Shown here one piece after another: positions 1 to 1,503 of a DNA stretch of 64,000 bases. Each line of letters begins with the position of its first letter. Positions within the stretch are counted from its first letter, which is position 1. The DNA comes from Pelagibacterium flavum (GTDB lineage: Bacteria > Pseudomonadota > Alphaproteobacteria > Rhizobiales > Devosiaceae). The stretch covers positions 2,969,001-3,033,000 of the forward strand of contig NZ_CP107716.1 in NCBI RefSeq assembly GCF_025854335.1, given 5' to 3'. The position numbers were made by a program, and so were the translations under genes. The notes under the pieces are model-generated. The model was not told the origin of the DNA, made no database searches, and worked only from the letters and a program-made list of their open reading frames with translations.

Positions 1-1057
1 CCACCAGATCCGCGTGCGCCATCTCGACAACCGACCGCGTATCCCCGGCCCGCCAGACGATCCCCGCCTCCCCATCGCGCACCGAAAGTCCCAGCGCCTC
101 GACCAGCCCCGCCGACGCGTCGCGCAGACTGGTCACCGCCTCGATTCCCAGCCCATGCACCATGGGCGCCCGTATATCGATTGCCTCGACCGGCACTCCG
201 AACTCATCGGCCATGGCGGCCAAAAGCTCCTCGGCACTCGCCGCCCCCAACCGCCCGTTCAGCCAATGCCCCGTGTCGTAATTGGCAGCGTCCGACCAGA
301 TGTCGGGCATGCCGGGAAACGCCGGATAGGGCCGCGCGTCCCAGCACCAGAGATATATGCGCTCGGCATCGAGCATCGGTGCGCCATAGATGCCCGACAC
401 GGGATTGTGCGCCCCCGCTTCCCGCCAGTATTGGTGGCACGCCCGCAGCATCTGGCGCTGGATCAGCGGATCGGGCGCGCCGCTCGAAAATGGCGGTCGC
501 TTGTCCTCGGCGCTTTTGGGGTCGCCAAACGCGTTGGGCGCGTTCGGCCCCTTGTCCACCGCACCGCATCCCAATTCGTCGCACCATGCGGCGGCAAATT
601 GGGGCCCGCGAAACCGTTCGGGATCGTTGGCCGGCATCAGCAGCGCCACAGCGCCATTGGACCAGACCAGCCGCTCCGCGCTCGCCTCATAGCGCGGCGC
701 CTCATTGTAGGGGTGGATCGCCTTGAGCCCCGAAACACCCTCGACCATGACCGCGCGCGCCTCGGCCATGGTTTCGCCCACCAGCGCTATGGGGCTGACG
801 GGTCGCTCGCCGGTCGCAAGTTCGCGGACCCATTCGGCACCGGCCCGTGTCTTGCCCGAGCCGCGTCCACCAATCAAAAGCCAGGTCGTCCAGTCGCCCT
901 TGGGGGCGCGCTGTTCGTCACGGCCCCATAAATCCCAGGCGAAGGTCCATTCGATGACCTCTTCGTCCGGCATCCTGTCGGCATGCTCACGCCAATAGGC
1001 GACCCGCTCTTCAAAACCGGCAAGGTCGTCGTCTCCCGCATGGTCATCGACGCTCAC
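1..1057 (-). CDS. Chimeric GTA gene: large terminase N-terminus fused in frame to GTA gp15 tail protein (partial)
   Basis: The frame starts at a GTG that overlaps the stop of the upstream gene (GTGA, 1054-1057) and stays open to the window edge. Residues 1-161 are a phage/GTA large terminase: Walker A GGRGSGKT at 63-70, then ERFRGPQF and the Walker B-like AAAWCDE. Straight after this, at nucleotides about 571-577, the protein becomes the TIM-barrel tail protein of GTAs (gp15): LGCGAVDKG, DPKSAED, NPVSGIYG, WDARPYPAFP and GHWLNGRLG. The terminase nuclease domain and the first part of gp15 are missing. The domain assignments come from family memory. The cause may be a deletion of the GTA head and tail genes between orfg2 and orfg15, or a chimeric assembly. 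A functional packaging motor is not expected from this protein. Confidence 0.8.
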   Translation of the reverse strand, partial: MSVDDHAGDDDLAGFEERVAYWREHADRMPDEEVIEWTFAWDLWGRDEQRAPKGDWTTWLLIGGRGSGKTRAGAEWVRELATGERPVSPIALVGETMAEARAVMVEGVSGLKAIHPYNEAPRYEASAERLVWSNGAVALLMPANDPERFRGPQFAAAWCDELGCGAVDKGPNAPNAFGDPKSAEDKRPPFSSGAPDPLIQRQMLRACHQYWREAGAHNPVSGIYGAPMLDAERIYLWCWDARPYPAFPGMPDIWSDAANYDTGHWLNGRLGAASAEELLAAMADEFGVPVEAIDIRAPMVHGLGIEAVTSLRDASAGLVEALGLSVRDGEAGIVWRAGDTRSVVEMAHADLV

Positions 1058-1470
1058 TTGCGTTCGATCTCGGCCATGCGTTCGGCCAGCCGTTGCTTGA
1101 TGGCTCCCATCTCGGCGCTCGGGCGCTTGGTCTTTTCGATCTTGCGTTCGGCATTGTCGAGGTCGATCAGCTTGTCGAGCGATCGCACGAGATTGCCCAG
1201 CATTGTCACTTCCGTGTTGCTCACCGATGTCATCTCCTCGTCGAGCAGGTTGAGTTGGCGTTCGAGAACGCGAAACATGCGCCTTATCAGCGTCGTGCGT
1301 TGCGTATGGCCGACCGTCGGCTTGCGCATCGGCCAGCCCTTGGCCTTGACGCGCGCATTGATCCCGCTGCGCGAAACGCCGTGACGCGCGGCAATTTCCG
1401 AAATCGGCACTTTGCCGGCCTCATATTCCGCCCGCACGGCATCCCAGTCCGGCTCCACCGTCCCGCTCAT
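1054..1470 (-). CDS. GTA/phage small terminase-like DNA-binding protein (gp1-like)
   Basis: A 138-aa protein. The ATG at 1470 is chosen because a GGATCGGG stretch lies just before it and upstream residues look non-coding. Residues about 17-45 form a helix-turn-helix (ISEIAARHGVSRSGINARVK), followed by a helical, charged region rich in Leu, Arg, Glu and Lys. This layout fits GTA gp1 or phage small terminase, which recognises DNA for packaging by the large subunit. It overlaps the terminase-like gene by four bases (GTGA), which suggests translational coupling. Unlike its partner it looks intact. It could also be a DUF1804-type HTH protein; the coupling to a terminase frame favours the packaging role. 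Confidence 0.75.
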   Translation of the reverse strand: MSGTVEPDWDAVRAEYEAGKVPISEIAARHGVSRSGINARVKAKGWPMRKPTVGHTQRTTLIRRMFRVLERQLNLLDEEMTSVSNTEVTMLGNLVRSLDKLIDLDNAERKIEKTKRPSAEMGAIKQRLAERMAEIERK

Positions 1471-1503
1471 CGCCCGATCCATCGCTGTCGTTGAAAAAAG
1501 GTC

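Follow-up and report, generated by a model that had tools for sequence, protein, structure and literature searches.

The fusion gene of Pelagibacterium flavum

The window analysed here is a stretch of 64,000 nucleotides (G000:C1:2969001-3033000) from the Pelagibacterium flavum genome G000, a single contig of 3,930,456 bases. At its left edge, on the minus strand, lies a gene (2..1057) in which gp2, the large terminase (TerL) of an RcGTA-type cluster, runs in frame into gp15. The frame starts with GTG and is open for 352 aa to the window edge, these being codons 1-352 of 798; the remainder lies beyond the left edge, and the whole gene occupies G000:C1:2967661-2970057. The gp2 part (578..1057, minus strand, by codon count) carries the Walker A motif GGRGSGKT and the Walker B strand as far as Asp160, and matches Terminase_6N at fusion residues 61-162 (Pfam, E 3e-16). 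The seam is the codon of Glu161 (575..577, minus strand, by codon count), a residue common to both parents. From there the sequence is gp15 (2..574, minus strand), which takes over at the TIM-barrel strand TE(L)G. The GTA_TIM match (residues 152-248, E 3.6e-35) is incomplete, covering only positions 204-299 of the 299 in the profile. The product consists of gp2 up to the Walker-B Glu, followed by gp15 from the final third of its TIM barrel to its end, with Phage-tail_3 and Rcc01698_C domains beyond the window. Both ATPase motifs of TerL, Walker A and Walker B, are kept and the C-terminal nuclease domain is absent, the frame leaving gp2 at residue 161. The first-pass annotation of this DNA had claimed an in-frame GTA gp2-gp15 fusion with its seam at 571-577; the Pfam matches on separate halves bear this out, and the join Glu falls inside that interval.

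Upstream lies a gp1-like small gene (1054..1482, minus strand, its start picked from likeness to G008), with a weak HTH match and 30% identity to the gp1 of G133. Downstream of the fusion are a DUF2793 gene and then a Glyco_hydro_108/PG_binding_3 gene. A chimeric assembly, which the annotation had named as the alternative, is very unlikely, because G000 is one contig and a second genome of the same species (G157, 90 contigs) carries the identical fusion gene (100%).

What was lost at the locus

The window is best explained as carrying the trace of a deletion in which about 12-14 kb with the GTA structural genes was lost and gp2 became fused to gp15 in frame. By aligned positions, the joined points lie 13.8 kb apart in the intact relative G008 and 11.9 kb apart in G009; a separation of about 12 kb in normal clusters had been foreseen, and the congeners have 12-14 kb. 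The outer flanks of the G000 locus are collinear with G009 on both sides, in blocks of 83-89% DNA identity, and the gp15 side is 88.6-88.7% identical to G008/G009 from the seam onward. With collinear flanks and both halves matching, the locus reads as an RcGTA-like remnant at the orthologous GTA position. The complete RcGTA-like head-tail set gp2-gp15 is not present in G000. No matches to gp3-gp14 were found in the 27 fused loci searched, that of G000 included. A capsid query detected no GTA-type capsid in G000, its sole match being a remote HK97 capsid (36%) 0.7 Mb off. A search with the fusion protein matched two places in the genome, the fusion itself and a gp15-like gene at 34% identity, and revealed neither an intact gp2 nor a close gp15 elsewhere. 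These searches agree with the annotation's view of a collapsed GTA whose frame is still open; they lend nothing to its suggestion that a second intact orfg2/orfg15 locus might expose the join as a misassembly.

The HK97-type capsid gene (G000:C1:2261599-2262642), 36% identical to the GTA capsid, probably belongs to a prophage. The second, divergent gp15-like gene (G000:C1:1391391-1393382; L004 10650-13412) encodes 920 aa at 34% identity to the fusion; a DUF2793 gene comes after it and an ISL3-type transposase lies directly upstream. Second gp15 copies at 33-34% are also found in G025, G088 and G125. In G008, the region upstream of gp1 (L036 6-5400), adjoining the intact GTA cluster, holds frames judged by eye as a putative Mu-type transposase and a phage repressor.

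One tract of the G000 locus (637..1419), from about codon 32 of gp1 to about 20 codons before the seam, is far more diverged from G008/G009 than its surroundings. Against these relatives dS is 0.93-1.15 in gp2N versus 0.36 in gp15C, and the last 20 gp2 codons before the seam are 93-97% identical to them. This gp1-gp2 tract is therefore probably an import beside a native seam.

The same join in two families

In 37 genomes gp2 and gp15 meet in frame at one shared Glu codon: nine Devosiaceae, 27 Rhodobacteraceae and Chelativorans. We call this join class I (gp2 Walker-B Glu to gp15 TIM-strand Glu), as distinct from class II, in which the same gp2 Glu is joined to an N-terminal gp15 Glu. The join is identical in all 37 class-I loci read, 20 of these genomes having come from, or having also been found by, a DNA pattern that fixes the register. 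Because it does so, the pattern alone cannot prove the exactness of the join; in the protein surveys of Devosiaceae and Rhodobacteraceae the register was left free. Among 136 Devosiaceae genomes the protein search yielded nine fusions of class I, from 8 species, and two of class II, both in Devosia-group genomes; all 11 direct gp2-gp15 joins are in frame, nine being identical and two sharing the gp2 side only. Among 394 Rhodobacteraceae genomes it yielded at least 14 fusions, with the same join in 14/14; survey rows starting near residue 20-60 in frames of at least 1,300 aa (e.g. G504, G879) were taken as intact-length gp15. Across the contigs of 84,980 species the DNA pattern returned 20 stretches, 20/20 of them true fusions: six of Devosia type, 13 from Rhodobacteraceae genera, and Chelativorans. 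The order survey (397 genomes) gave no fusion outside Devosiaceae among the best matches listed, and viral contigs held 0 copies of the join.

All 14 genomes that the pattern hit outside Devosiaceae were searched for an intact gp2 or gp15 apart from the fusion, and none turned up. A capsid match was absent in 31/38 fused genomes, intact controls matching in 4/4; the remaining 7 have only matches of 26-44%, on other contigs or far away. Three one-contig assemblies carry the fusion (G000, G069, G103).

Other collapses also occur. Both GTA ends lie on one contig in 85 Devosiaceae genomes, at 11-17 kb in 69 and under 10 kb in 16; the latter comprise the 9 class-I and 2 class-II genomes and 5 others, four of which (G032, G026, G129, G090) have a near-whole gp2 and differing gp15 pieces. 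GTA loss therefore has several routes, of which the Glu-Glu join is the commonest seen. In the collapsed loci L253 (G096), L043 (G032) and L044 (G026) only about the last 120 gp15 residues are kept (matches start at 1121-1128).

Number of origins

In both Devosiaceae and Rhodobacteraceae the same codon-exact deletion has arisen many times over, on lineages separate from one another. On an rpoB tree of 27 genomes, 7 of them class I (of 30, G157 and G111 gave no match and the partial G078 was left out), the fused label needs 6 changes, all 6 forced by starred branches, with G065 and G069 as fused sisters. For Rhodobacteraceae the count rests on a gp15C tree, not on a species marker. With 84 rows, 23 of them fused, it needs 18 changes, 13 forced, which is close to the mean of 20.4 for shuffled labels, and G669 and G902 stay fused sisters (99). 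In this tree 'intact' means not seen fused in one frame, and rows so scored include G931 (a frameshifted fusion), G683 (with a contig boundary at the seam), G709 and G721 (both collapsed); G517 was dropped for its long branch, and the fused G512, G521 and G523 stand outside the set. A smaller tree (65 rows) had given 11 changes, 9 forced, against 18.5 when shuffled. Fused-only clades looked real there because the intact rows had been picked by likeness to one fusion, and adding intact rows broke up most of them.

Thioclava offers a close view, with 3/16 genomes fused. The intact G921 is nested within the fused trio on the gp15C DNA tree (97/97), and the junction-side codons of G520 are common with G921, not with the fused G514 and G928; therefore at least two events, or recombination, took place in this genus. 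Regain of an intact cluster by G921 was considered and rejected, its identity with G925 being unbroken at the seam.

Sequence at the seam

Nine fused genomes were set against relatives in 11 comparisons. Over the 60 bases to the left of the Glu codon there are 1-15 differences from the relative's gp2 and 35-45 from its gp15; over the 60 bases to the right there are 2-13 from the relative's gp15 and 37-43 from its gp2. Both sides of the seam thus look native in the nine genomes compared.

The annotation had supposed that both partners share GAATTGG or GAACTGG at this point. This holds only in part: in G008/G009, the closest intact relatives, gp2 reads GAGCTGG and gp15 reads GA(A/G)TTGG. The exact shared run on this diagonal is 3 bases. 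Across 30 intact genomes the exact gp2/gp15 runs at the seam measure 3-10 bp, and gp2 and gp15 share 143-391 matches of at least 8 bp; in 36 intact genomes, out of about half a million codon pairs that would keep the frame, 1,888 to 181,183 match better than the pair used. Microhomology as the sole cause was rejected, as seam homology is short and is outmatched at thousands of in-frame positions. The single microhomology accident envisaged for this locus is likewise at odds with a codon-exact join repeated in 37 genomes of many lineages. The earlier reading of the locus is in sum partly supported.

The features that the gp2 site does share with both gp15 sites are TGG at -9 to -7 and GA at 0 and 1, mostly with T at 4 and G at 6. 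In 39 genomes gp15 has on average 69 Glu, 2.5 of them with Trp at -3, and both gp15 sites used (class I and class II) carry this Trp, which is discarded in the product. By random choice of Glu, Trp at both sites has a chance of about 0.001, in a test framed after the fact. That the gp15 Trp is lost from the product points to DNA-level pairing; shared strand geometry is another possible source of the W-x-x-E pattern and would fit selection. The coding strands of five loci of about 18-20 kb hold 12-17 copies of TGG-N6-GAR each; being so common, the motif cannot be the whole signal. In G683 the first codon of contig C14 (L286) is the junction Glu codon of gp15, which a mix of fused and intact molecules would be expected to produce; the case stands alone and was noticed post hoc. 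A gp2 match was not found in the G683 genome.

The fusion product

Among the 37 class-I frames 29 are fully open, including that of G516, which carries TAG in its 5' part; 4 are broken (G512, G521, G837 and G931, the last by a frameshift in the gp2 part; at least two are in metagenome assemblies) and 4 are cut by a contig or locus end. Walker A is found in 31/33 fused genes, the other two being too short, and thus in 31/31 that reach it. In the three Thioclava fusions dN/dS is 0.04-0.075 for gp2N and 0.09-0.13 for gp15C. These ratios are equal in fused-intact and intact-intact pairs, so the low values cannot be credited to evolution since the fusion.

The predicted structure of the G000 fusion (mean pLDDT 71, pTM 0.39) drops under a pLDDT of 50 in three stretches, 60-68 (Walker A), 150-196 and 233-271; that of a Thioclava fusion (74.9 and 0.44) does so in two, 175-221 and 259-295. 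In both models most of the gp15 part is good. A choice of join dictated by the fold was rejected, both models being unfolded there. Foldseek placed phage and GTA tail-tip proteins on top for the G000 model and FN3-type proteins further down, with no terminase among the 50 matches listed.

Discussion

Compared with the RcGTA-type head-tail clusters of Alphaproteobacteria, the fusion locus has the orthologous place, the gp1-like gene, the start of gp2, the end of gp15 and the conserved flanks. It differs in lacking the nuclease half of gp2, gp3-gp14 and the N-terminal part of gp15, and in that gp2 and gp15 are one gene. As far as the accessible parts of one study go, GTA clusters have been pseudogenised or lost, and GTA production lost, recurrently in many lineages, and cheater lineages have been proposed (PMC10883770). 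Our loci resemble those losses in their recurrence across many lineages and differ in that one codon-exact in-frame join is repeated; the accessible parts of that study mention no fusion. Nor did we find a gp2-gp15 fusion in the mostly open-access literature on GTAs, their loss and cheaters, within the portions available (PMC13236601, PMC10883770, PMC7947584, PMC6209664).

Our best reading is repeated independent loss of the GTA by deletion at a fixed seam, either through a sequence-directed hotspot (W-x-x-E to W-x-x-E) or through selection for the chimera, both of which would account for the fixed seam. The mostly young tips, some broken frames, the Trp pattern and the contig start in G683 lean toward the hotspot, and the in-frame product and mostly open frames toward selection. 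Site-specific excision, as by excisons or integrase deletions, leaves a fixed seam too. The GTA collapse is alike in this but differs in that neither a circle nor a reciprocal joint was found for it. A pattern for the reciprocal joint matched 7 viral stretches, of which the 3 with a readable frame look unrelated, and 305/312 loci had no match, the other 7 being these very stretches; the joint itself was found neither in viral contigs nor in the 312 loci examined. Of an excised circle there was no sign: the 38 fused genomes searched showed no GTA-type capsid, and the reciprocal joint was not seen in these sets.

Selection for the chimera would mean that deletions of every kind, though rare, arise in very large populations and that only the exact join yields a protein, with a TerL half up to the catalytic Glu and a gp15 tail-tip half, that benefits the cell beyond mere GTA loss, for example one interfering with GTA proteins or particles. 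The register, never off by one residue, would follow naturally, as would the 11/11 in-frame joins in Devosiaceae, the predominance of open frames, the Walker A motif kept wherever it is reached and the low dN/dS in Thioclava. However, that dN/dS may predate the fusion, both models are unfolded at the join with the Walker A of G000 below 50, 4/37 frames are broken, and the discarded Trp at -3 is left unaccounted for unless it marks equivalent strands; we consider this explanation somewhat unlikely. A different scheme has one or a few ancient fusion alleles spreading by homologous recombination, perhaps in GTA particles, with the conserved blocks as arms and the flanks turning native again. The seam-adjoining blocks are among the most conserved of gp2 and gp15, the taxa concerned carry GTAs, the gp1-gp2 tract of G000 looks imported, and the Thioclava gp2N and gp15C trees disagree. 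Yet the seam codons of G000 and G520 are those of their own lineage's gp2 and gp15 almost to the base, G083, G072 and G078 have no surplus of foreign changes near the seam, and gp15C trees group fused genes with intact relatives. The carriage of whole fusion alleles between species is disfavoured because the seam codons are native, and we hold it improbable. That the joins are assembly or database artefacts is scarcely credible: draft and metagenome assemblies are frequent among the genomes, but three one-contig genomes carry the fusion, G157 repeats G000, and named records from differing sources agree.

Taken as a whole, the explanation that we put foremost, though at slightly less than an even chance, is recurrent deletion with the seam set at the DNA level. 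A rearrangement would pair the W-x-x-E coding sequence (TGG-N6-GAR) of gp2 with that of gp15; cells losing the GTA would escape the cost of lysis and rise as cheaters; and the chimera would be a by-product, open while young and decaying later, which is also the view of the chimera toward which we lean. Stated more boldly, alphaproteobacterial GTA clusters may carry a built-in fragile seam, with a sequence-directed process that recurrently excises the structural genes by cutting at the TerL Walker-B Glu codon and the matching gp15 W-x-x-E codon and that yields GTA-negative cells often enough for them to show up in about 4-7% of sampled species from two families, perhaps within single cultures; this we regard as possible, though rather doubtful.

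Producers lyse while non-producers profit, and what lets GTAs persist in spite of this is an open question in the field (PMC10883770, PMC6209664). Since a codon-exact loss would show up by PCR or in sequencing reads, it lets one count, across hundreds of species, how often GTA-negative lineages arise, how old they are and what becomes of them. If the hotspot is true, an unknown deletion process would be at work in bacterial chromosomes; if selection is true, a natural chimera of two phage-derived proteins would have been invented many times.
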